Origin: a virus
Strand: one strand, 5' to 3'
Length of the DNA stretch: 27,108 bases
IMG/VR virus record: IMGVR_UViG_3300032287_004611
Location: 1 to 27,108 of that record
Shown: positions 3 through 19,664 of the stretch, piece by piece
Layout of the letters: each line of letters begins with the position of its first letter
Numbering within the stretch: the stretch's first letter is position 1
Made by a program: the position numbers and the translations under genes
The notes under the pieces: model-generated
Database searches by the model: none
Seen by the model: only the letters and a program-made list of their open reading frames with translations
Told to the model about the DNA's origin: nothing

Positions 3-557
3 ATAGAGGATTTTTTAACGACCGAAGAATGTCTGTCAATCATAGAATTAGGGGAGTCATCGGATTTAATTCAGATGAAGTCATCACTTGTTGTTAATGG
101 AAAAGTGATGGCAGAAAATGTTGAATATACAGGAAATAAAAGAATGGGGACATATTTTATCGATGAACTGTTAATCCTACCGATCATAAAAAATTTAAGT
201 GACAAAATTGTAAATCTTTCGAATGAATTGAATCCTTATAAAGGAATAGTGTATAAAGGAGTACCAAAATATTCATTTAATAGATATGGCATTGGGGATT
301 TTTTAGATTGGCATCCAGATAGTCACGAAATTGCAAACGGTGCAACAATCACTTACATCGTTCAATTAAATGAAGAATACGAAAACGGAGAGGTCCAGTA
401 TTTAATAAACGATGTTGAACATTCAGTACCTAAAAAGAAAGGCAGTGTTTTTATCTTTGATTCAAATATTGTACATTCTGTGAAAGAGATAACGAAAGGA
501 ACTAGATATTCAATAAATGTGTGGCCTTCTAAGGAGATTAAAAAAACATTACTATAA
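3..557 (+). CDS. 2OG-Fe(II) oxygenase (prolyl 4-hydroxylase-like), 5' partial
   Basis: The frame is open from the left edge, so the true start lies outside the window. An ATG at 75 exists, but the codons before it read IEDFLTTEECLSIIEL, the typical N-terminal stretch of P4H-like oxygenases, so 75 is an internal methionine. Counting from that Met, the Fe(II) ligands are H80-x-D82 and H134, and R144 in GTRYSINVW is the likely 2-oxoglutarate anchor. The family hydroxylates protein or small-molecule substrates; the substrate here is unknown. It is the first visible member of the + strand modification cassette. Its TAA overlaps the ATG of the next gene (TAATG), which implies translational coupling. 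The C-terminus is KKTLL, part of a motif shared across the cassette. Confidence 0.85.
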   Translation: MEDFLTTEECLSIIELGESSDLIQMKSSLVVNGKVMAENVEYTGNKRMGTYFIDELLILPIIKNLSDKIVNLSNELNPYKGIVYKGVPKYSFNRYGIGDFLDWHPDSHEIANGATITYIVQLNEEYENGEVQYLINDVEHSVPKKKGSVFIFDSNIVHSVKEITKGTRYSINVWPSKEIKKTLL

Positions 558-1348
558 TGCTAGTAGATAATAAATTTTTCTATTTAAGTTTACCTAGGTG
601 CGCATCAACATCATTCCATTATTCCTGCTTGGTTAACGGGATAGATGCTCAAACATATAATGGGGAATGGGAGAAATCAAATGCAGGTATCGATTTTAAA
701 TCAGTAGACAAATTGAAGTTGATGGATTACATCTATCATGGACATGAATCGATCATAGAGCTGCAATCTAAATTCGGAAACGGTTATCCAGTGATTTCAG
801 TAAGAAGACAGAGGCATGAAAGATTTTATTCCTTCTATAAGCACATTCTATTCGATTTTAAAAGACTTGGCTTTATTAGATTCTATGATGCATTTTCTAA
901 ATTATCCCTTGATGAGCTATTCTTTTTTACTAGAGAAGATATTACAAACAAAAAACAAAGATGGAACATCATCTGTGATTACTTGATCGACAGAGAACTA
1001 TTGGAAGAAAGGGTAGATATATCAGTAACATCAAAATTCAGAAAATCAGAGGAAGAATATTTTAAGAGGGACAAAAAGGGATATGTGGTTAATATGATAG
1101 ATATATTGCTGACGCCAATTTCTTTTTGGACAAACAACGACCCCAATATAATTTGGTTTGATTTCGAAGAGCTAGAAAAATTGGAGAACTGGGTTTCTGA
1201 CAAGATAGGGAAGCCGTTCCGATTACATCCAGTAAATTCGAGTAAACACATGGACTGTAAAATAGCTCTGGATGATAATTTTAGGAAAAGGTATGACAAA
1301 ATATATGATTATTATGACTTTCCAAAGAATAACAAGACCCTGATATGA
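557..1348 (+). CDS. Sulfotransferase-like P-loop protein
   Basis: 263 aa. The N-terminus has a beta-strand followed by LPRCASTS (residues 12-19), the 5'-phosphosulfate-binding loop of sulfotransferases. VISVRRQRHERFYSF (about 79-93) matches the 3'-phosphate-binding strand and helix, with the expected Arg and Ser. Family knowledge: transfer of sulfate from PAPS to a sugar, peptide or small molecule. The acceptor cannot be told. Start and stop are both coupled: TAATG with the upstream oxygenase and ATGA with the downstream zinc ribbon. The C-terminus is NNKTLI. The overlapping 106-aa minus-strand frame is a shadow. Confidence 0.75.
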   Translation: MLVDNKFFYLSLPRCASTSFHYSCLVNGIDAQTYNGEWEKSNAGIDFKSVDKLKLMDYIYHGHESIIELQSKFGNGYPVISVRRQRHERFYSFYKHILFDFKRLGFIRFYDAFSKLSLDELFFFTREDITNKKQRWNIICDYLIDRELLEERVDISVTSKFRKSEEEYFKRDKKGYVVNMIDILLTPISFWTNNDPNIIWFDFEELEKLENWVSDKIGKPFRLHPVNSSKHMDCKIALDDNFRKRYDKIYDYYDFPKNNKTLI

Positions 1349-1632
1349 TCGATTACAAAGAAATATTTGAAGCTTGGAAGGCGTCGTTTAAGCCTAATCA
1401 GCAACAGGAGGAATTAGCACAAAAAAGACTTAATGTATGTCTAGGATGTGATCAAAGAAGAGAGGCATTAAAGGGTGTTAAATGGTCAGCGTATTGCAGC
1501 GATTGTGGATGTCCAATAAATAAAAAAATCTTCTCTAAACATTATAATCCATGCACAAAAGGGTATTGGGAGGAGGTTGACTCTGAATATATGAAGCCAT
1601 CTCCGGGAAAAAATACCAACACTATAATTTAA
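1345..1632 (+). CDS. Small Cys-rich zinc-ribbon-like protein
   Basis: 95 aa with C32-x2-C35, C51-x2-C54-x-C56-P and C70, a pattern suited to one or two Zn sites or an Fe-S site. The N-terminal 30 residues look helical (EIFEAWKASF). I recognise no enzyme domain. It overlaps the sulfotransferase-like gene by 4 nt (ATGA), so it belongs to the same transcript and may be an accessory or adaptor protein. The C-terminus NTNTII again finishes in two branched hydrophobics. Function unknown. Confidence 0.75.
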   Translation: MIDYKEIFEAWKASFKPNQQQEELAQKRLNVCLGCDQRREALKGVKWSAYCSDCGCPINKKIFSKHYNPCTKGYWEEVDSEYMKPSPGKNTNTII

Positions 1633-1642
1633 GGTATATACA

Positions 1643-1649
1643 ATAAATA
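1643..1649 (+). promoter_or_regulatory. ATAAATA box ahead of the ATP-grasp-Hint gene
   Basis: The 26-nt gap between the zinc-ribbon gene and the ATG at 1659 is one of the few real gaps in the cassette. It contains ATAAATA, the core of the T4-type late promoter TATAAATA, 9 nt before the start. Promoter function is inferred from similarity only. Confidence 0.35.
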
Positions 1650-1658
1650 AAAAAAATC

Positions 1659-3149
1659 ATGAAAGCAACGATAATTGGCAGCGATTTGCTACAAAGCGGG
1701 GACTCTGTTAAATTTTTAGAAATAAATACCAACACCACGATTTATAATCAGGGTGCAGATTTATTAGACTATACTCAATTATTTGACGTATTAAATAATA
1801 ACAATATCACAGAATTCCATTTTATCTGGACAGAAGGGGATGCTTATAAGCCTCTCATGGAGCAATATAGATTTAAAAAAATTCTGGAGGAAAAATGTTT
1901 AGAAAATAATATTTCATTCGCGGAATATCCTGTACCTGTTGGATCTGTGACAGTTCCTTATATAGAGGATCAGCCTTATAAATTCATTCTGAGACAAGCA
2001 TTTGATACTACAGCTTTAGTTGACGAGACATACTGCGCAGATAAATTCGAATTCTTCTCCTTGATGGAGGGATCTTCATACATACCCGGAACTTATTTTG
2101 CTTCGGATAATCTAAATTTAGACTCTTTGGAATCAGTAGAGTATGAGAGAACCACAAATCCTAACACATTAATAAAAGCTAGAAGACCTAATTATAATGT
2201 TTTGGATTATCCTGCATTATATAGAATATCAAATTCAACTGAACTACAAGAACTTAAAAATTCAGCGGATCAGAATCATCTAGTTCAGGAATTCATTTTC
2301 TCCGAGGATAATTTAGTGGAAGGAAGATATTCAATAATAAGAAGTATAGACATTATATACGGCTCGAATTTGGATGTTATTAATATGGGTGGATATACAC
2401 AATCCACTATCATTCCGCTTACGTTTGCTGATGATGAGGTATTACCAGGAACTAACAAATTAAATCAGAAAAGTAGATACAAGTACATAACGAAGGAAAT
2501 AGGGAACTTCGCTAAAAATGATTATCACACTGACGACGACAGCGCGATACTAAGCTACGATGGAACACTGACAGATATTGACACCATTCAATTAGGAGAT
2601 TATGTTCGTTCTATCGATTATGTTGATTTTAATGATAATCACGCAGCAAAATTCGAGGAGGAAAAAATAGAAACCTTTGGATGGGACAGCACAATGGAAA
2701 GAGCCAATGAAACATTAGTTCAAACCCAAACTGCTTTACAGTGGATGATTTCTTCCCTGGTTGATACAATCTACATAAGAATAACCCTAGCAGACGGAAG
2801 ATCCTGGACGGACTCACCATCTGCGACATATTTTATAGAGGAGAAGGATTCGACTGCAACAAAATTTGAAAGCGTAAATAAAATGTACATCGGAGATAAA
2901 TTGGTAGTAACAGATTCCACTACAGCATCTTTAACTACGATTGCTATTACTGGTTTGGAAATGGAGCACGCTCAAAAAACTATTTACACCTTAGATTTTG
3001 AGCCATCCGATCTATTCTTGGTCGATTTTGGAGATGGAGATTTTGGGGTAATGCACAATAGCTGCTGGTGTCCTTGGAACTATTGCGGGCACTGGTGCAA
3101 TAGCAATTATTGTCCTGGGTGCGGTGACACCCCCGCACCTAAGCTTTAA
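1659..3149 (+). CDS. ATP-grasp-like protein fused to a Hint (intein-like) domain with Cys-rich C-terminal tail
   Basis: 496 aa in three parts. Residues 1-285 look ATP-grasp-like: LIKARR (171-176) would carry the ATP-binding Lys and HLVQEFI (207-213) resembles the hinge strand. Residues 295-467 look like a Hint domain: S295-AILSYDGT, then DTIQLGDYVRS (block A), a block-B-like ITLADGRSWT (375-384), a YIGDKL turn (410-415), and a C-terminal TIYTLDF...GVMHN ending in H466-N467 before S468, the usual C-terminal splice junction. The tail (468-496) has Cys at 469, 471, 476, 480, 485 and 488, with three Trp. Two oddities: Ser instead of Cys at the N-terminal junction, and no His at the block-B TxxH position (T384-D-S-P387). 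Cleavage or splicing chemistry is therefore plausible but may be altered. ATP-grasp assignment is moderate; Hint assignment is stronger. Confidence 0.7.
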   Translation: MKATIIGSDLLQSGDSVKFLEINTNTTIYNQGADLLDYTQLFDVLNNNNITEFHFIWTEGDAYKPLMEQYRFKKILEEKCLENNISFAEYPVPVGSVTVPYIEDQPYKFILRQAFDTTALVDETYCADKFEFFSLMEGSSYIPGTYFASDNLNLDSLESVEYERTTNPNTLIKARRPNYNVLDYPALYRISNSTELQELKNSADQNHLVQEFIFSEDNLVEGRYSIIRSIDIIYGSNLDVINMGGYTQSTIIPLTFADDEVLPGTNKLNQKSRYKYITKEIGNFAKNDYHTDDDSAILSYDGTLTDIDTIQLGDYVRSIDYVDFNDNHAAKFEEEKIETFGWDSTMERANETLVQTQTALQWMISSLVDTIYIRITLADGRSWTDSPSATYFIEEKDSTATKFESVNKMYIGDKLVVTDSTTASLTTIAITGLEMEHAQKTIYTLDFEPSDLFLVDFGDGDFGVMHNSCWCPWNYCGHWCNSNYCPGCGDTPAPKL

Positions 3150-3168
3150 AAAATAATTAAAAAATACA

Positions 3169-3309
3169 ATGGCAAAGAAAGAAAGAATCGAAAGACCGGC
3201 TCAGACCATCAAAGCAATTATTGCTCCAGTCTCAGCAGATTTGAAAACAAAAATGGCAACAGCATTCCAAGCAGTTGTTACTGCTATAAAAAATAAGCAT
3301 CTGGGATAA
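3169..3309 (+). CDS. 46-aa Ala/Lys-rich peptide
   Basis: A short ORF starting MAKKERIERP and ending KNKHLG, 19 nt after the ATP-grasp-Hint stop and 4 nt before the SGNH gene, in an otherwise gene-packed operon. The N-terminus is charged. The rest (about 13-43) is Ala/Val/Ile-rich with periodic Lys and could form an amphipathic helix. There are no Cys residues. It could be a small virion peptide, a substrate for the neighbouring enzymes, or a regulator. The A-rich leader before the ATG fits Bacteroidota-type initiation. Function unknown. Confidence 0.6.
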   Translation: MAKKERIERPAQTIKAIIAPVSADLKTKMATAFQAVVTAIKNKHLG

Positions 3310-3313
3310 TCCT

Positions 3314-4135
3314 ATGAAATTATTCGCTTACGGCGATAGCTGGACAGAAGGAGTAGGCGGAAATTCAGAGGAGGAAAAAACTACCGAGATACCAGAGGAA
3401 AGAACTGTCATAAGACACAAATATTGCTGGCCTAAGCAACTATCGGAATTACTTGGATGTGATTTTCAAAATGACGGGGTAGGGGCTTTCTCTAATAATG
3501 CAATATTTAATGCCATTTGCTATAAACTAAAAAACAATCTTATCAAACAAGAGGATCTCGTTGTAGTGATGTGGTCTTCATCTCTAAGAGATTCTCTACC
3601 ATTTTTTCCTGGAGATCATAGCTTTTCTATCTGGGGCGAAAGATACAAAAGCAAAAAGCATTTGTACAAATATATTTTCGATGGGGGAAACAATCTAAAT
3701 CCTGATTATGGAAGGATAGAAAAGGATTTTAAGGACTATTACATTACTAATCTATTCACAGATACCTATCACGATATAATCAATCAGAATTACATTCTGT
3801 ACCTGCAATTTGTACTTAAAAATCTAGGAATAAGATATGTTTTTTGCGATGCTTTTGACCCTATGATCAGAAAGGATATTGTTGCTGAGGTAGATAAAAC
3901 TGAATTAATAGAAAATAAAAATTACTGGGGGTATAGGGAAAAAACATTTGCAGATTTCTTAATTAATTTAAAGAGAAAGGATGTCTGGGAAGATGGAAAT
4001 TATTGGACGGATTCAACCGCAGGAAAACATCCAAGCGGATCGGGATATAAAATAATAGCAGAAGAATTGTATAGGTTTATCTCTGATAATAATCTGCTAG
4101 AACAGACTAGAATAAAAAGTTCATATTTAATATGA
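3314..4135 (+). CDS. SGNH/GDSL-like hydrolase
   Basis: 273 aa. Block I is MKLFAYGDSWTEG, with nucleophile S9 in G-D-S-W. The C-terminal block has D233 and H239 in DSTAGKHPSGSGY, matching the D..H-P-x-G-x-x signature. VVVMWSSSLRDS (83-94) could supply block III. The family contains esterases and acetyl-esterases, including carbohydrate deacetylases and acyltransferases. In this context an O-acyl modification or removal on a glycan is a reasonable guess. The C-terminus is IKSSYLI. The stop overlaps the next start (ATGA at 4132-4135). Confidence 0.8.
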   Translation: MKLFAYGDSWTEGVGGNSEEEKTTEIPEERTVIRHKYCWPKQLSELLGCDFQNDGVGAFSNNAIFNAICYKLKNNLIKQEDLVVVMWSSSLRDSLPFFPGDHSFSIWGERYKSKKHLYKYIFDGGNNLNPDYGRIEKDFKDYYITNLFTDTYHDIINQNYILYLQFVLKNLGIRYVFCDAFDPMIRKDIVAEVDKTELIENKNYWGYREKTFADFLINLKRKDVWEDGNYWTDSTAGKHPSGSGYKIIAEELYRFISDNNLLEQTRIKSSYLI

Positions 4136-4698
4136 ATTATAACATAAACAATAATTTTTGTTCAGCCGACGAAGCTAAAGAGATCATTAATTTTTGTCTT
4201 GAGCACGGAGAGCCTTTTTCTTACAAGCCAACAGAATCTTGGGATTGTAGAAGAATTTATGACCCAGCATTTAAAGAAAAAATATTCAACAGTTTAAACT
4301 CCAAATACAAAAATGGGGATTTTAAGCTATGGTTTGATTACAGCACATTCGTCCCAAAAAATTTTAATATCAGTTTAACAGCATATTACGATGGGAGATA
4401 TCTTAACTTACATAAAGATAAATCTAGTGAGCTGACAACCGTAATAGTCTTGTCAGAAGGATTCGAGGGCGGCCAATTTTCTCTATCCGAAATGGAAAAT
4501 CCTCCCTTTCATTTTGAAAGTCTGGAAGGTCTATCCCTATTTGATTTAAAATTAGGTGACAGCATATCATTTAACGGATCTTCCACTTACCACGGGGTAC
4601 TCCCTGTTATCAAAGGAACTAGATATGCTCTAAATATATGGATGACTGAAACAGATTTTGACTATCCCAAAATTAAAGTTAATAAGACCTTGTTATGA
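4132..4698 (+). CDS. 2OG-Fe(II) oxygenase (second copy)
   Basis: 188 aa. Fe ligands H94-K-D96 and H154, 2OG anchor R164 in the GTRYALNIW strand. The double-stranded beta-helix strands are readable (TTVIVLSEGFEGGQFSL, 102-118). The N-terminal NNNFCSADEAKEIINF is the usual helix start of the family. It is a diverged paralog of the oxygenase at the left edge, since both carry K-G-T-R-Y-x-x-N-x-W, and it ends NKTLL. ATGA overlaps occur at both ends. Substrate unknown. Confidence 0.85.
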   Translation: MNYNINNNFCSADEAKEIINFCLEHGEPFSYKPTESWDCRRIYDPAFKEKIFNSLNSKYKNGDFKLWFDYSTFVPKNFNISLTAYYDGRYLNLHKDKSSELTTVIVLSEGFEGGQFSLSEMENPPFHFESLEGLSLFDLKLGDSISFNGSSTYHGVLPVIKGTRYALNIWMTETDFDYPKIKVNKTLL

Positions 4699-5219
4699 GT
4701 ATTTTAATAGTAGCTTTACCTAGAACTGGGTCGACAGAATTGGGCAGATCTTTATCAGTTCAGAAAAAGTATCAGTATGGATTTGAAGTTTTTAATCCAG
4801 CAGCAAATCTTCCAGAGCCGTTAGATTTTAAAAGGATGGTGGTCAAAACAATAATTTTTCACAAGCCTAAAAACGTGGAAGAAAGGGACAGATTAGATTG
4901 GATTATTGATCTGTCTAAAAAATTTGAAGAAGTTATCCTTCTCTCAAGAAGAGATCTTATAGCATGCGCAGAAAGTTGGGCTTACTTAATTTATAAGGGG
5001 CAGGAAAAAGACTTTAAATCTATAGACCCATATATGTGGGAAAAAACACCTAATTATGATTCAGAATATGAATCAATTAAGAAATGGAACAAAGAGATAC
5101 AGTATCTGTCAGAAAGTCTAAAAATTCCTATCACTTATTATGAAGATATTTACAATTTGAATCACCCTGGCAGATTAAGAAAAGGGGATCTAAATAATTT
5201 TGAAAAGAAAATAATCTAG
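4695..5219 (+). CDS. Sulfotransferase-like P-loop protein (second copy)
   Basis: 174 aa, short for a sulfotransferase. LPRTGSTELG (8-17) is the PAPS 5'-phosphosulfate loop. VILLSRRDLIACAESW (80-95) is the 3'-phosphate-binding region with R85 and S94. The C-terminal third of typical sulfotransferases is reduced, so the acceptor site may be minimal. It starts within the stop of the preceding oxygenase (ATGA) and abuts the next gene (TAG then ATG). Two oxygenase-sulfotransferase pairs now lie in the same order in this cassette, which suggests pairwise function or duplication. The C-terminus is FEKKII. Confidence 0.75.
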   Translation: MSILIVALPRTGSTELGRSLSVQKKYQYGFEVFNPAANLPEPLDFKRMVVKTIIFHKPKNVEERDRLDWIIDLSKKFEEVILLSRRDLIACAESWAYLIYKGQEKDFKSIDPYMWEKTPNYDSEYESIKKWNKEIQYLSESLKIPITYYEDIYNLNHPGRLRKGDLNNFEKKII

Positions 5220-6470
5220 ATGAAAATATACATCCATCATTTTTATCAAAAATCTTTGTTTTATAAGATTGCTCACAACACAGAGGGTAGATCGTATAAG
5301 ATAGAAAATGGAGGGGGAAGTGTTTTATGTAGATATCGAGATATCGATATTGAGATTATTTTTAAACAAGAAATCACATTTGAAGAAGATGGGTATCATC
5401 TTCTGGACTACTTTACTGCATTTTTTAACGAAACCAACGACCCTAAGATTGGAACTATTATTCACGATAAAAAATATATGGAGGGAGAAACCCAGCAGGT
5501 CTTAAATACTTTTCTAGATTTACTAAGGGATTGTCCAGCTAATCAAAAATGGATAATAACGTATTTCAGAACAGAAAAAATACTACAAACAAAGGATATA
5601 AATTACTTTGACGAAAAATGGTCAGAAATAGAATCCATCATAAGGAAATTAAAGGGCCATCACATTGTTACTGATAATATCTTCCTGAATGATGCGATAG
5701 AATCTCAATATCCTAATTTCTATTATTCTTTTACAAACATCATCTTTCAATGGAATCAAAATTGGTCGGTTAGATGGTATTATGAGTTTAAACAAATATA
5801 TGATAAATTGAATTTTGATTATGATCTCATGTATAGCATAAAAAACCATAAAATAAACAGGGTTGAGATCATTAATGAGCTAAGCAAATTGAAGGATAGC
5901 AGGATATTACTTCAACGCAGTGATGCATTACAAAACGAGGACTATCTAAATAACTCAGGTATTATTCCGCACATAAAAATAAATTCGATCATAGGAAATA
6001 AAGACTTTGACGACATAAGCTACATAGAAAACCATAAGGGATACATGGATGTATTTTTTAGGGTTTTACCAAAAGCAAAAATGCAAATATTATGCGAAAG
6101 CTGGTCTTGGAGTAGCAAGGATTTTAAATCCCAGTATCTTTCTGAAAAAACTATTGGACTTATTCTAGCAGGAATTCCTTTTATCTCTACCCACGAGTAT
6201 CCTTTGGCAATAATAGAAAAGGTTCTTCAAGTGCCTTCTCATCCTTTTTATGAATCTTCAAAAAAATGTAAAGCAAACGGAAAAATGTTTGCCAAATTTG
6301 TTAGCGAATTTCTTAACAATTTCCAGGAGAACTATAAACTATGCAAAGAATGGTCAGATTTGGTACATCATAAATTGATGCACAAAATAGAGGAAGAAAA
6401 TTCTTTACTTGATATGATAATAAATGGTGGATTAAAAGAAGAATTTGTGATAAAAAAATCATTAATATAA
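5220..6470 (+). CDS. Putative glycosyltransferase (exostosin/fucosyltransferase-like C-terminal motif)
   Basis: 416 aa. Most of the protein is unfamiliar. LSEKTIGLILAGIPFIS (307-323) closely resembles the nucleotide-sugar-binding SEKxxxxxxxGxPFI motif of GT10/exostosin-like enzymes. ESWSWSSKDF just before it could be the preceding donor-site loop. The length suits a two-Rossmann GT-B fold. The N-terminal MKIYIHHFYQKS could be the first beta-strand. It ends VIKKSLI. The TAATG overlap with the methyltransferase indicates coupling. The family call is by motif and not certain. Confidence 0.5.
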   Translation: MKIYIHHFYQKSLFYKIAHNTEGRSYKIENGGGSVLCRYRDIDIEIIFKQEITFEEDGYHLLDYFTAFFNETNDPKIGTIIHDKKYMEGETQQVLNTFLDLLRDCPANQKWIITYFRTEKILQTKDINYFDEKWSEIESIIRKLKGHHIVTDNIFLNDAIESQYPNFYYSFTNIIFQWNQNWSVRWYYEFKQIYDKLNFDYDLMYSIKNHKINRVEIINELSKLKDSRILLQRSDALQNEDYLNNSGIIPHIKINSIIGNKDFDDISYIENHKGYMDVFFRVLPKAKMQILCESWSWSSKDFKSQYLSEKTIGLILAGIPFISTHEYPLAIIEKVLQVPSHPFYESSKKCKANGKMFAKFVSEFLNNFQENYKLCKEWSDLVHHKLMHKIEEENSLLDMIINGGLKEEFVIKKSLI

Positions 6471-7069
6471 TGGTAGAGTCCCATTGCATTTATAATAATT
6501 TAGTTACAGAGCAAACATCATACTGTGTAAGCACCTTACTGCCAAACTTTTTAAATGATGTTAGACCGGATAATATAGTAGAAATAGGTACTGCATGCGG
6601 GGGATTGACACACTTTTTGTCTGATATATGTCCGTATAGTAAAATTATAACGGTGGAAACCAAAGATTTTTATTCATATAATTTTAAAGAAAATGTCCAA
6701 AGTATAATACATGATAGTAATTCGGAGGAATTAATAAGAAACACGATGTCTCCATTTATACAATCAAACGGAAGAACAATTGTTTTTTGCGACGGAGGTA
6801 ATAAAATTACTGATTTTATAAATTACGCACCACTAATTAAAAGAGGTGATTACATATGTGTTCACGATTATTGTAAGGATAGAAATATTTTTATAAATGA
6901 ATATTACAACAAAATTTGGAATTATTGCAGATTAGTAGAATCTGACCTATCCGGAATTTGCGATGAATATGGATTAATTGACACCTATGATGAACTTCAA
7001 AGGGGTATGTGGAGGGTTAAAATAAAAGAATCGGACAAAACAAAAATTAAATCAAGGTCTTTAATATAG
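6470..7069 (+). CDS. SAM-dependent methyltransferase-like protein (CmcI-like)
   Basis: 199 aa. NIVEIGTACGG (35-45) is the SAM-binding motif I. IITVETKDF (59-67) is the motif II acidic strand. TIVFCDGGNK (103-112) followed by DYICVHDY (127-134) matches the CmcI / Methyltransf_24 pattern with a metal-compatible D-G-G and H-D. Family members O-methylate sugars and related small molecules. It is coupled to the preceding GT-like gene (TAATG) and abuts the next gene (TAG ATG). The C-terminus is KSRSLI. The methyl acceptor is unknown; a sugar would fit the neighbours. Confidence 0.7.
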   Translation: MVESHCIYNNLVTEQTSYCVSTLLPNFLNDVRPDNIVEIGTACGGLTHFLSDICPYSKIITVETKDFYSYNFKENVQSIIHDSNSEELIRNTMSPFIQSNGRTIVFCDGGNKITDFINYAPLIKRGDYICVHDYCKDRNIFINEYYNKIWNYCRLVESDLSGICDEYGLIDTYDELQRGMWRVKIKESDKTKIKSRSLI

Positions 7070-7762
7070 ATGGAAATAGTATTTACATATTTACCAATCA
7101 GACTTAAAGAAGTTACAGAAATTTATTTGAGCCATTCTATAAAAAAACTGAATGAGCAGAGTATAGTTCCTTTGATCTATTCCGATTCAGATTATTTTAT
7201 TGGGAGGGGAATGAAATATGAGTGGATAGAATTCAATATAGAGGAAAGATATAAAAGAAACAACTTATGGTCATATCCTAAGCTTAAAGTTTTATCATCA
7301 ATCTCATTTCCCTTTATTCATTTAGACAACGATCTGATTGTAAATGATTTTAATAAACTAAACAGTATCATAGAACCAAAAAAATTAAATTTGTGCTATA
7401 AACACGAACTAACAAAGGGACAGATCAACGACTTTACCGAATTGTATAAAATGTATTCTAATAATCCCCTCGATTTTAAAGATCTAAATAACACATCTAT
7501 AATAGCTTCTAATAATTATACAGACGTGAATAAAACATATCAGGAGGTTTTAGAAGTGATAGATTTAAACTACGATTTTTTTACAAAAAGGTACAATAAT
7601 ATACCTCCGATAACTCTGAACCAACAACACTTAAACAGATATTTTAAAGATATAAATTATTTATTTAGGGGGAATCCTTCTTTTATGGATCTTGAGTCTA
7701 ATGGCGTATGCCATATCGATGAAAAAAATCTTCCTAGATTTTTAATAAAGGATCTGATATAA
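7070..7762 (+). CDS. GT-A-type glycosyltransferase-like protein
   Basis: 230 aa. NNLWSYPKLKVL followed by FPFIHLDNDLIV (80-91) is the arrangement seen in phage and bacterial GT-like proteins where D86-N-D88 is the DxD metal/nucleotide-sugar motif. LNQQHLNRYF, about 100 residues later, is a typical late motif of such proteins. It is the last gene of the + strand cassette and converges on the minus-strand block 4 nt after its stop. No convincing terminator is seen there. It ends FLIKDLI, keeping the cassette's C-terminal pattern. Confidence 0.6.
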   Translation: MEIVFTYLPIRLKEVTEIYLSHSIKKLNEQSIVPLIYSDSDYFIGRGMKYEWIEFNIEERYKRNNLWSYPKLKVLSSISFPFIHLDNDLIVNDFNKLNSIIEPKKLNLCYKHELTKGQINDFTELYKMYSNNPLDFKDLNNTSIIASNNYTDVNKTYQEVLEVIDLNYDFFTKRYNNIPPITLNQQHLNRYFKDINYLFRGNPSFMDLESNGVCHIDEKNLPRFLIKDLI

Positions 7763-15835: not shown

Positions 15836-16480
15836 TTATGTATTCTCTTCGTCGATCTCCCCGTCCTCGTGGAATACTATACCGTTTGACTCTATGGCAT
15901 TAATTACGCCGTCGTTTGTAAATTGATCATCATAAGAATCTGATGCATTAGTAAGGACCCAATCTATATGGGATTCGAATTTTTTTTCTGCGGATTCAAA
16001 ATACTCTTCTATTTCGCCGACAGATTCTGAGCCAAATTTCTCTATCATTGATTCTTCGTCGTCTATTTCAAATTCTATAGTGGTATTTCCATACCTTCCC
16101 GAATCCTTGAATGAATAATATATAAACTTTCTGAATCTATTAGGAATACCAAGCCATCTTAAAAATAGATTATCGTTGGTAACATCCAAAGCATCTGCAC
16201 AGTGTATGTAATAATTGGGATCATCCTTCCCGACCAGCGAAATATTCTTTCTGGTGTTTCCAATCATTAGATTACCACCGTTATTTAAAATATAATCCGG
16301 TCCAAATAATTCCATCATTTCAGTTTGAGCTGGCTCGAAAAGGGCATCGTCATCTATTACCCAGCTCATATCAGAGGACCAATTACCATTATACATCTCA
16401 GATCTTACCCTTTCAATAGCATTTTTTTGTGCTTTGTCAGAAAGATTATCGAACTCGTAATATTCAAAAAGATGTCTCAT
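15836..16480 (-). CDS. Hypothetical phage protein (FDNLSDKAQ-type N-terminus)
   Basis: 214 aa, acidic. YYEFDNLSDKAQKNAIERVR (7-26) is a motif often seen at the start of phage hypotheticals (F-x-x-L-S-x-x-A-x-x-x-A-I). The central region is aromatic-rich and the C-terminal half is strongly acidic (EIDDEESMIEKFGSES). The very N-terminus, MRHLFEYYEF, also resembles the tag series but lacks a clear L/I-x-E. No catalytic motif. Its ATG overlaps the TAA of the upstream small gene (TAATG), so translation is coupled. Confidence 0.65.
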   Translation of the reverse strand: MRHLFEYYEFDNLSDKAQKNAIERVRSEMYNGNWSSDMSWVIDDDALFEPAQTEMMELFGPDYILNNGGNLMIGNTRKNISLVGKDDPNYYIHCADALDVTNDNLFLRWLGIPNRFRKFIYYSFKDSGRYGNTTIEFEIDDEESMIEKFGSESVGEIEEYFESAEKKFESHIDWVLTNASDSYDDQFTNDGVINAIESNGIVFHEDGEIDEENT

Positions 16481-16734
16481 TAATAGTTAACTGGATAATT
16501 TCCTCCGTGATATGTTCTCTGAATGACGTTCCATTGTTTCAAAGAGGTCTTTCCGCCTTTCTTTTCGATCGAGTCTAGAACCTTAAACACATAATCAACC
16601 TCTCTAGCGGGTCTTAGTCTAAAAACCTGTCTGTAATGCTGGATTTGTCCAGGATTTAAGATCTTATACTCCTTAGGATTATAATTTGGATTGAATGGCT
16701 GTTCAAAATTTTCGTATATCTGTAGATGCTTCAT
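16480..16734 (-). CDS. Tagged small protein
   Basis: 84 aa from the ATG at 16734 (MKHLQIYENFEQPFN). The upstream in-frame ATG at 16758 would overlap the previous gene and place the ATATATAG box inside the coding region, so it is not preferred. The N-terminus fits the basic-aromatic tag, without a clean cleavage site. The rest is basic and Gln/Tyr/Arg-rich (ILNPGQIQHYRQVFRLRPAR). It could be a small nucleic-acid-binding protein, but no family is recognised. It is coupled to the 214-aa gene (TAATG). Confidence 0.6.
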   Translation of the reverse strand: MKHLQIYENFEQPFNPNYNPKEYKILNPGQIQHYRQVFRLRPAREVDYVFKVLDSIEKKGGKTSLKQWNVIQRTYHGGNYPVNY

Positions 16735-16738
16735 AGTT

Positions 16739-16746
16739 CTATATAT
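16739..16746 (-). promoter_or_regulatory. ATATATAG box 4 nt before a tagged gene
   Basis: The minus strand reads AAATATATAGAACTATG. It matches 7 of 8 bases of the recurrent box and overlaps the stop region of the 102-aa gene. Confidence 0.3.
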
Positions 16747-17047
16747 TTCTAGACACAATAGATAAAGCCTTTTTTATCTCGGAACATGTTTCATAATCCT
16801 CTATTTCTATCATTCCTTCCAGGCATTTATTAAGAGCTTTTTCCCATTGATCCCGCGAAACCGAAAAAACCTTATTTTCATCTCCTACCTGAACCTCGAA
16901 TAAATCCACTTCCTCCAACCCCTTAGCTATTCCATAAAAAATCCCTCTTACGATTTCATAAATCATTTCGGGATCCTTGACCTCCATTATAGCATCAATT
17001 GGGGTTTCTTCCTCCCCTTTATTAAATCTTCTGATCATCCTTGCCAT
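16739..17047 (-). CDS. Hypothetical protein
   Basis: 102 aa. It starts MARMIRRFNKGEEE, then looks entirely helical (ELIYEIVRGI-like stretch at 29-43, then RDQWEKALNKCLEGMIEIED). Acidic apart from the first ten residues. No motif recognised. It is 10 nt after the HAD-like gene's stop, probably in the same transcript. ATAAATA lies 18 nt before the ATG (17066-17072). Confidence 0.6.
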   Translation of the reverse strand: MARMIRRFNKGEEETPIDAIMEVKDPEMIYEIVRGIFYGIAKGLEEVDLFEVQVGDENKVFSVSRDQWEKALNKCLEGMIEIEDYETCSEIKKALSIVSRNI

Positions 17048-17566: not shown

Positions 17567-18292
17567 TTAAGACATTTTTTCCTTAATCATTAGATCTTTG
17601 GCCCTTATTAAATCTTCTGGTGTATCGATAGCAATTGTTTCCTTGTAAGAAAGTGTGTATTTCATTCTATATCCTGCCTCCATCCATCTAATCTGTTCTA
17701 ATTGCTCAGCAGTGGATCCAGGAGAGGGATTCAACTTTGATATCTCTGCAATATCTGACTTATGAAATCCGTATATTCCAACGTGTTTAAATATGTTCTC
17801 ATTTTTTCCAAAGAAGGGAGATCTTGTAAAAGATATCACATCGTCATTTATATCAGTTATCATTTTTACCGAAGATCTGTTTAACATGTCCTCATCTTTT
17901 AATTCGGTTGCACCTGTTATTATTGTACCTCCTCTGAAGAAAATCAATTGATTTATTAGTCTGTCTAAAAAACTCGGGTCGATAAAAGGTTCGTCACCCT
18001 GGACATTTATTATGTAATCAAAATCTCCGGACATTTCTAATGCGGTGTGACATACACGGAGAGTCCCATTATCAAACTTGGGTGTCATATAACAATTCCC
18101 AAATTCGGTTACATGGTTGTATATCGATTTATCCTCTGTTGATACTATTACAGAATCTGCTACGGATTCTGTGCATTTTTCATATACCCTTCTTATCATG
18201 GATTTCCCCCCAATATCTTCCAAAGGTTTATTGGGAAATCTAGAACTGCCCATTCTAGAAGGTATGATTATGCAAATTTTTCTACCTCTCAT
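17567..18292 (-). CDS. kdsB: 3-deoxy-manno-octulosonate cytidylyltransferase (CMP-Kdo synthetase)
   Basis: 241 aa from the ATG at 18292 (MRGRKICIIIPSRMGSSRFP), which sits 2 nt after the upstream stop; the 22 earlier residues of the longer frame overlap that gene and are dropped. PSRMGSSRFPNKPL (11-24) with the following GGKSMIRRVYE is the cytidylyltransferase nucleotide-binding signature. INVQGDEPFI (95-104) is the family's catalytic QGDEP block. KHVGIYGFHK is the downstream strand. The enzyme activates Kdo with CTP for lipopolysaccharide or capsule synthesis. No Kdo synthase or transferase is visible here, so it would use host Kdo or a related acid sugar. Confidence 0.88.
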   Translation of the reverse strand: MRGRKICIIIPSRMGSSRFPNKPLEDIGGKSMIRRVYEKCTESVADSVIVSTEDKSIYNHVTEFGNCYMTPKFDNGTLRVCHTALEMSGDFDYIINVQGDEPFIDPSFLDRLINQLIFFRGGTIITGATELKDEDMLNRSSVKMITDINDDVISFTRSPFFGKNENIFKHVGIYGFHKSDIAEISKLNPSPGSTAEQLEQIRWMEAGYRMKYTLSYKETIAIDTPEDLIRAKDLMIKEKMS

Positions 18293-18294
18293 AA

Positions 18295-18699
18295 TTAATA
18301 ATGTAGATCTAAAAAGAGAATCTCTTTTCCGTCGTCCTCGTAGAGAACTGGACACCAAGCAGGATGATACTGAGAACTAGCTTCGATTATCTGCTCTTCT
18401 GTGAATTTCTTTCTCATCTCATCTTTGAAATCTGGATATTTCTCTTTGTCGTCAAATTCCCCTTTATCTAAAGCATCGTTATACGATTTCATCCAGTTTG
18501 AATGCTCTGCTTCCTTGAGATAAACCTTCCAGTCATGATCCTCGTAATAAAAATCTTCTACCCTCTGCACAACTACCAAAGCATCGTCAGGAACTTCGTG
18601 TTTTTCTATGAATTTTTTAAGAGCTCCTACCGTCATATATCCATGATTTAGATAAGACAGCAGTTCTTCCTTATTCAGCGGAGTTATTTTCTTTTCCAT
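18295..18699 (-). CDS. Hypothetical phage protein
   Basis: 134 aa, acidic. YMTVGALKKFIEKHEVPDDALV (21-42) is a motif I associate with small phage proteins of unknown function, where a helix precedes the conserved P-D-D-A. The C-terminal half has SQYHPAWCPVLYEDDGKEIL. The first 29 nt overlap the end of the upstream 77-aa gene. KdsB starts 2 nt after its stop, so the two are likely co-expressed. The plus-strand frames at 18040-18380 are shadows. Confidence 0.65.
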   Translation of the reverse strand: MEKKITPLNKEELLSYLNHGYMTVGALKKFIEKHEVPDDALVVVQRVEDFYYEDHDWKVYLKEAEHSNWMKSYNDALDKGEFDDKEKYPDFKDEMRKKFTEEQIIEASSQYHPAWCPVLYEDDGKEILFLDLHY

Positions 18700-19202: not shown

Positions 19203-19664
19203 ATGAGGATTAAAAAATTTAAAGATTTTACCCACATCAAGGAGAACTATTACGGTTCTTATGAAGAGGACGACACAACCAAGGAGGTAGAACCCTATAA
19301 AACTGCTAAACACAAAATGTTTAAAGTAATTAAAAACTGGAAGAGTTCAGCAGCCGTATTGACCAACGTTATCACTAAAAAACTTTACTTTTTTTACTAC
19401 GAAGACAAAGATCCTTCAGATTTTTATGATTATGCCTGGCTCCCTGGTTATTATGAATGGGACGAAGACGGGAAATCATTAACCCGTAATACCGAAGCTT
19501 TCGAATTTGATGATGAGGTGGTAGAGGAGTATGTTAACGATAATACTAATTACCTTGAATACGGAGAAGGACTTGAGGATTACGAAACTGGAGAGTATGA
19601 CTTTATCCTAATCGACGAGACATTAAGGGAAGAAATAGAAAAAGTGTTTGGAAAATTTGACTAA
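19203..19664 (+). CDS. Tagged acidic protein, the only + gene in the right block
   Basis: 153 aa. The N-terminal MRIKKFKDFTHIKENYYG matches the basic-aromatic tag with I-K-E as a possible cleavage site. The body is very acidic and Tyr-rich (YFFYYEDKDPSDFYDYAWLPGYYEWDEDG; EEYVNDNTNYLEYGEGLEDYETGEYD). Strong negative charge and aromaticity are features of DNA-mimic or anti-restriction proteins; this is a suggestion only. It converges with the 133-aa gene, with one base between the stops. Confidence 0.65.
   Translation: MRIKKFKDFTHIKENYYGSYEEDDTTKEVEPYKTAKHKMFKVIKNWKSSAAVLTNVITKKLYFFYYEDKDPSDFYDYAWLPGYYEWDEDGKSLTRNTEAFEFDDEVVEEYVNDNTNYLEYGEGLEDYETGEYDFILIDETLREEIEKVFGKFD

Follow-up and report, generated by a model that had tools for sequence, protein, structure and literature searches.

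A conserved C-terminal peptide on unrelated modification-type enzymes of a phage gene cassette, a possible docking tag

The virus record IMGVR_UViG_3300032287_004611 of IMG/VR (positions 1 to 27,108; this whole 27.1-kb contig is called the window below) carries a cassette of eleven plus-strand genes, nine of which encode proteins that end in two Leu/Ile residues, usually after a Lys and a Ser or Thr (Table 1). We found that this short C-terminal tag is borne by large T4-like phages of an uncultured and widespread group, where it marks enzymes of at least six folds and is missing from two adjoining core proteins to which it may dock them. A first-pass annotation, made from the letters of the window alone, had listed nine endings on eleven proteins, and all nine are present; the exceptions are a 496-aa protein and a 46-aa peptide. 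Its start of the first gene at position 75 has to be corrected, as this is an internal ATG of a gene cut by the window edge, whose full-length homologs have 189 aa and end in IKKTLL or IKKSLI. Genes were found with a simple open reading frame (ORF) caller. In the window, 9/11 operon genes end in [ILV][IL] against 3/37 other genes (Fisher p = 6e-6).

The cassette was found at 113 related loci in IMG/VR. Using the 95-aa Zn-ribbon-like protein as a search seed led to 41 loci with the same cassette, and further searches returned 137 relatives with a 217-aa 2-oxoglutarate (2OG) oxygenase as query, 133 with the core protein and 212 with a radical S-adenosylmethionine (SAM) protein, the best 80 of each being kept. 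Separate searches frequently led to the same contigs, and their loci are not independent; all cassette-bearing contigs are metagenomic and may be incomplete. Some 13 main families are represented over the 113 loci; within them 91-100% of unique members retain the ending, and the claim that unrelated folds share it is borne out, with at least six found. Tagged are 107/108 members of one 2OG family (2OGa) and 53/56 of a second (2OGb, the three others ending in SLV or SFI), all 34 halogenases, 17/18 radical SAM proteins, both sulfotransferase-like families (STa, 61/61; STb, 54/54), 53/54 Zn-ribbon proteins, 32/32 SGNH hydrolases (SGNHa), all homologs of the 416-aa (16/16) and 230-aa (12/12) proteins, 3/3 methyltransferases and two further families throughout (11/11 and 14/14). 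The radical SAM search added 74 further loci, over which 71 of 73 homologs are tagged. The consensus is K-x-x-K-[S/T/K]-[L/I]-[I/L]-stop; weighted by family, positions -7 to -4 are Lys-rich, and Ser, Thr or Lys at -3 is followed by Leu/Ile at -2 and Ile/Leu at -1. By their terminase, the phages that carry the cassette fall among the T4-like phages, close to phages of Bacteroidota.

The first-pass annotation had named two outcomes that would speak against a selected tag, the same ending on homologs outside such cassettes and a frequency no higher than the genome background; neither was found. In four long related contigs (G001, 288.7 kb; G002, 287.5 kb; G003, 159.8 kb; G007, 89.3 kb) the operon was defined solely by strand and by gaps of <=60 nt around the core gene; there the ending [ILV][IL] occurs in 37/56 core-operon genes versus 51/952 others (p = 3e-29, with genes treated as independent), a background of about 5%. 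Scoring with a matrix derived from the cassette, a partly circular procedure, marks 38/58 cassette genes as tagged versus 19/951 others. Within these genomes, a homolog of a tagged family bears the tag in 36/39 cases if it lies inside the cassette and in 4/17 if outside it; one 2OG homolog with 53% identity, outside the cassette of the same genome, ends in RESKFKK. In Flavobacterium phage immuto, one of the nearest cultured relatives as judged by terminase (55% identity), none of 202 ORFs has a tag-like ending (150 kb examined). Shared descent of the tagged proteins was rejected as an explanation, given their six or more folds and the mostly untagged paralogs elsewhere in the same genomes.

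Two cases of such endings away from the cassette can be described here. A 590-aa protein, apparently an NAD-dependent epimerase fused to a 2OG-like domain, ends in IKKSLI in G003 (82549-84321, minus strand) and in VKKSLI in its G004 version (78137, plus strand), so that dispersed enzymes may use the tag too. In the window, two adjacent, overlapping and apparently related minus-strand genes (21560-22342 and 22318-23004) both end in FGLI, leaving one other [ILV][IL] ending outside the cassette.

Whether such endings are a property of the proteins or of the DNA between closely packed genes is an obvious question, as translation coupling (ATGA or TAATG overlaps) or recombination seams might produce them. 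The final Ile of the tag is encoded by ATA 278 times where 153 are expected, as ATGA overlaps would lead one to expect, and among stop/start-overlapping genes outside the cassette 19/150 end in [ILV][IL]. Overlap alone thus accounts for about 13%, against about 90% seen. Codon choice at -5 to -3 of tagged genes is largely close to background, 96 of the 467 tagged genes either face a convergent neighbour or lack any start codon within 30 nt, and the 53%-identical homolog outside the cassette is untagged. The 230-aa gene of the window, the last of its cassette, faces a convergent gene and has no start codon downstream, yet it is tagged. On the codon and gap tests we have largely rejected a nucleotide-level origin, which we regard as scarcely credible. 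As the first-pass annotation had noted, the codons differ between genes, and codon usage together with the stand-alone genes argues for selection on the protein, as judged from these sequences. In several families the residues that precede the tag are more variable than the tag itself. The Pfam domain of two 2OG proteins of the window ends at residue 174 of 184 and 171 of 188 (first and seventh genes of Table 1), which leaves short tails of 10 and 17 residues that hold the tag.

The distribution of the tag among cassette genes is of special interest. In their usual order, genes for an adenosine 5'-phosphosulfate (APS) kinase, a nucleotidylyltransferase and a DUF2061 protein are followed by tagged 2OG, halogenase, 2OG, STa and Zn-ribbon genes, then by the untagged core pair, and then by tagged SGNH, 2OG and STb genes and a variable set. 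Family searches also identify radical SAM proteins, APS kinase, DUF2061 and carbamoyltransferase in the cassettes. The Trp halogenase is a strong match (PF04820, E=1e-86) with invariant GGGTAGW and K73, the latter presumably the active-site Lys by homology, and has sub-cut-off NCBIfam matches to LodB, GoxB and QhpG. From their sequences, the tagged families are modification-type enzymes: Trp halogenase, 2OG oxygenases, radical SAM and SGNH proteins, and sulfotransferase-, methyltransferase- and glycosyltransferase-like proteins. Supply genes are almost never tagged (nucleotidylyltransferase 0/25, DUF2061 0/28, carbamoyltransferase 0/9, APS kinase 1/22). The modifying enzymes bear the tag and the supply enzymes that adjoin them do not, and this contrast is our chief reason for favoring docking to a protein substrate that the enzymes share.

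Where a locus extends as far as the two core genes, for the 46-aa peptide and the 496-aa protein, these nearly always adjoin, and neither is ever tagged. The 496-aa protein has an average column identity of about 80% (24 sequences) and no sequence-level match in PDB or Pfam. Its residues 1-287 gave an AlphaFold2 model with a mean predicted local distance difference test score (pLDDT) of 77.7 and a predicted template modeling score of 0.76; the model of the whole protein (pLDDT 38) was not used. This N-terminal domain matches YgiC in Foldseek (E=2.3e-5, prob 1.00) and, modestly, YjfC (VIA Z 8.6 over 202 residues, root-mean-square deviation 4.8), as well as GspS, glutathione synthetases and, more weakly, tubulin tyrosine ligase, so by prediction it has a GspS-like ATP-grasp fold. 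Residues D9, E21 and N23, a D-x11-E-x-N triad invariant in 50 core sequences, are in register with GspS residues 318, 330 and 332 (alignment of 1-281 to 310-608), which we take to be Mg ligands. Unlike the YgiC/YjfC/GspS ligases, whose predicted fold and triad position it shares, the phage protein continues into a Hint-like region and then a Cys/Trp-rich tail. The Hint-like call rests on the motifs DG-x(n)-GD-x-V and a terminal HN (the region ends in MHN); no Hint profile in Pfam or NCBIfam matches the protein, and as Cys1 is absent this region is at most degenerate.

The tail after HN, typically xCWCPWxYCGxxCxSxxCxxC, differs between phages while the body of the protein is conserved, and most members end in K and a hydrophobic residue. 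At locus L158 the Cys-rich segment is followed by a long extension, and at L166 it is swapped for another Cys-rich sequence. The 46-aa peptide has 47 unique homologs, all untagged and ending in KHL(G/S/N)(E); the simple ORF caller left it uncalled in a few loci (e.g., L006, L158). No core protein was found in cultured phages by tblastn, nor in five halogenase-bearing phage genomes by a profile search run without a positive control, and a bacterial genome scan limited to two short patterns gave no relatives.

The reading that we lean towards, with a little less than even confidence, is that the cassette enzymes are recruited through a C-terminal docking tag to the untagged core, whose Cys/Trp/Tyr-rich tail they would then modify. 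One shared partner would read the strictly C-terminal peptide K-x-x-K-[S/T/K]-[L/I]-[I/L]-COOH, carboxylate included; the likeliest candidates are the 496-aa ATP-grasp/Hint-like protein, the 46-aa peptide or the two together. A single substrate, most likely the tail of the 496-aa protein, would thereby have halogenase, 2OG oxygenases, sulfotransferases, radical SAM proteins and others kept close by. We can also imagine, more guardedly and as a possibility short of probable, a modular phage assembly line into which any modification enzyme is drafted by one universal C-terminal peptide that plugs into an ATP-grasp/Hint-like core with its own substrate segment.

Several points weigh against docking to the core. 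The partner of the tag was not identified directly, and a few tag-like endings, the 19 scored by the matrix, lie away from the cassette. STa, STb, the Zn-ribbon-like protein and the 416-aa protein are assigned from motifs, with no significant family match. Tag variants within a phage co-vary weakly at -2 and -3 and not at all at -1 and -4, a pattern that is neutral with regard to a conserved receptor. An association between loss of the halogenase and a Pro/Ser change in the tail was dropped as substrate evidence, since it comes mostly from one clade and so does not speak for the tail as halogenase substrate.

Docking fits best of the three roles that the first-pass annotation had offered for the ending, the others being sorting and controlled proteolysis. 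A sorting or packaging signal would route the enzymes to a phage-built compartment, be it the virion, a tail or capsid under assembly, or some other. Encapsulins and microcompartments gather cargo in this way, through short C-terminal tags on unrelated enzymes, and the peroxisomal targeting signal PTS1 is likewise a short C-terminal peptide that serves co-localization; their motifs differ from the phage tag. No shell gene or PTS1 receptor was recognized among the cassette genes, several of which are unidentified and for which no search with shell hidden Markov models was made. Halogenase genes lie near tail-fiber genes in P-SSM2 and S-SRM01, and at one locus (L080) a large tail-fiber-like gene directly follows the cassette, but other cassettes do not adjoin tail genes, and the O2, SAM, 3'-phosphoadenosine 5'-phosphosulfate or FADH2 needed by several enzymes would be easier to obtain in the cytoplasm. 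We consider sorting unlikely. The L080 gene (G003, 105687-110525) encodes a Ser/Thr-rich protein of 1612 aa, and genes for three short possible tip proteins also lie after the cassette. As for controlled proteolysis, in which the hydrophobic C-terminus would be a degron for a host protease (Tsp/Prc, ClpXP or a PDZ protease), many bacterial proteases do recognize such C-termini, and P-2 of the family-weighted tag is Ser or Thr in 56% (Lys in 20%), as in class I PDZ ligands. Yet the core genes and supply enzymes of the same cassettes are untagged, the conserved Lys positions match no degron known to us, and no phage PDZ_2 domain (PF13180) was detected in the four long contigs, which may be incomplete (control, 14/14 genomes; other PDZ models and host PDZ proteins were outside this search). 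This suggestion thus went unsupported, and we give it very little weight.

A covalent version of the interaction can be drawn from the predicted fold of the core, in which the ATP-grasp domain would join the C-terminal carboxylate of the tag to an amine of the core, the 46-aa peptide, a polyamine or another molecule. GspS and tubulin tyrosine ligase use C-terminal carboxylates, and both are among the fold matches, with YgiC, YjfC and glutathione synthetase; the invariant D9, E21 and N23 in register with GspS and the strictly terminal position of the tag agree with it. The modest fold scores speak against this version, as does the odd design of ligating enzymes permanently, and we find it quite unlikely.

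Among known systems, the closest logic is that of QhpC/QhpD/QhpG. This system and LodA/LodB (cysteine tryptophylquinone maturation) resemble the cassette in pairing a ribosomal protein that contains Cys/Trp with a halogenase-like FAD enzyme, and Qhp also includes a radical SAM enzyme: QhpG, whose fold is halogenase-like, acts with QhpD to modify Trp of QhpC, the three forming a ternary complex, QhpCDG (PMC7876137). No shared C-terminal enzyme tag is described for Qhp or Lod, and the phage cassette has many more enzyme types and a strong Trp_halogenase match. A second parallel lies in the clusters for ribosomally synthesized and post-translationally modified peptides (RiPPs), where tailoring enzymes are grouped about a ribosomal segment that is short, variable and rich in Cys and aromatic residues, an arrangement that the cassette may share. 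In RiPP systems a leader peptide recruits the enzymes via domains of the RiPP recognition element (RRE) type, whereas in the phage cassette the enzymes bear the tag and a precursor would putatively be cleaved and modified; RiPP precursors are also usually far shorter than the 496-aa protein, with its conserved body and variable tail. Trp halogenase, 2OG and radical SAM genes adjoin the 496-aa gene, and their products may act on a peptide.

Flavin halogenases and 2OG oxygenases also occur in T4-like marine phages, as here, among them VirX1 of cyanophage Syn10, a halogenase that can act on large aromatic substrates (PMC8407142). In HTVC008M, P-SSM2, S-H38, S-SCSM2R and S-SRM01 (cyanophages and a pelagiphage) those halogenase and 2OG genes that were examined are untagged, and five genomes of this kind gave no match to the core. 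Halogenase-like genes were also matched in INPHARED outside the usual marine cyanophage context, in four Campylobacter phages and in the human fecal phages MT837902 and MT835646.

We found no description of such a tag in the open-licence literature. Aquatic phages commonly encode halogenases, 2OG oxygenases and sulfotransferases, few of whose substrates are known; the tag that such enzymes share here marks them as proteins that would act together, and it comes with a candidate substrate and scaffold. If the modular assembly line imagined above exists, its product would be a RiPP-like or cofactor-like protein of viral origin, made with a recruitment logic inverse to that of leader-peptide systems. 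A tag that proves to be a portable docking peptide could also become a tool for building multi-enzyme complexes.

Table 1. Cassette genes and other features of the window, with tag positions and the basis of each assignment.
Feature	Positions	Strand	C-terminus (tag positions)	Basis or remark
2OG-Fe(II) oxygenase (2OGa family)	3..557	+	KKTLL (540-554)	PF13640 E=4e-13; 5' end cut by window edge
P-loop sulfotransferase-like (STa)	557..1348	+	NKTLI (1331-1345)	motif LPRCASTS only; no Pfam match
95-aa Zn-ribbon-like protein (Zn95)	1345..1632	+	NTII (1618-1629)	CxxC pairs; tagged despite gap after gene
496-aa core protein	1659..3149	+	untagged, PAPKL	predicted GspS-like ATP-grasp (1-287), Hint-like region, Cys/Trp/Tyr-rich tail
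46-aa peptide, second core gene	3169..3309	+	untagged, KHLG	adjoins ATP-grasp gene
SGNH/GDSL-like hydrolase (SGNHa, DUF6071)	3314..4135	+	SSYLI (4118-4132)	PF19547 E=3e-7
2OG-Fe(II) oxygenase (2OGa)	4132..4698	+	NKTLL (4681-4695)	PF13640 E=9e-8
P-loop sulfotransferase-like (STb)	4695..5219	+	KKII (5205-5216)	motif LPRTGST; weak Sulfotransfer_3 match E=0.019
416-aa protein, glycosyltransferase-like by resemblance only	5220..6470	+	KKSLI (6453-6467)	no curated family match
Methyltransferase (RMNT_CmcI family)	6470..7069	+	SRSLI (7052-7066)	PF04989 E=1.5e-5
230-aa protein, DUF6734-like, glycosyltransferase-like	7070..7762	+	IKDLI (7745-7759)	PF20508 E=0.0013, below cut-off
2OG oxygenase homolog outside cassette	23858..24409	-	untagged, RFGKFV	internal control
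Small proteins with similar N-terminus	9322-9654, 9679-9927, 13657-14319, 15836-16480, 16480-16758	-		
Small protein with similar N-terminus	19203-19664	+		

Outside the cassette, several small proteins of the window start with a similar peptide (MKHLKTFDLINEEF, MEIKRFYDFLNEM, MENLKSYKKFILNEG, MKHLQIYENF...). This N-terminal peptide resembles the capsid-targeting sequence of T4, and the phage may possess a second short-tag system. Finally, the minus-strand gene at 17567-18358 resembles by eye a 3-deoxy-manno-octulosonate cytidylyltransferase (KdsB), which suggests sugar activation for a surface glycan.

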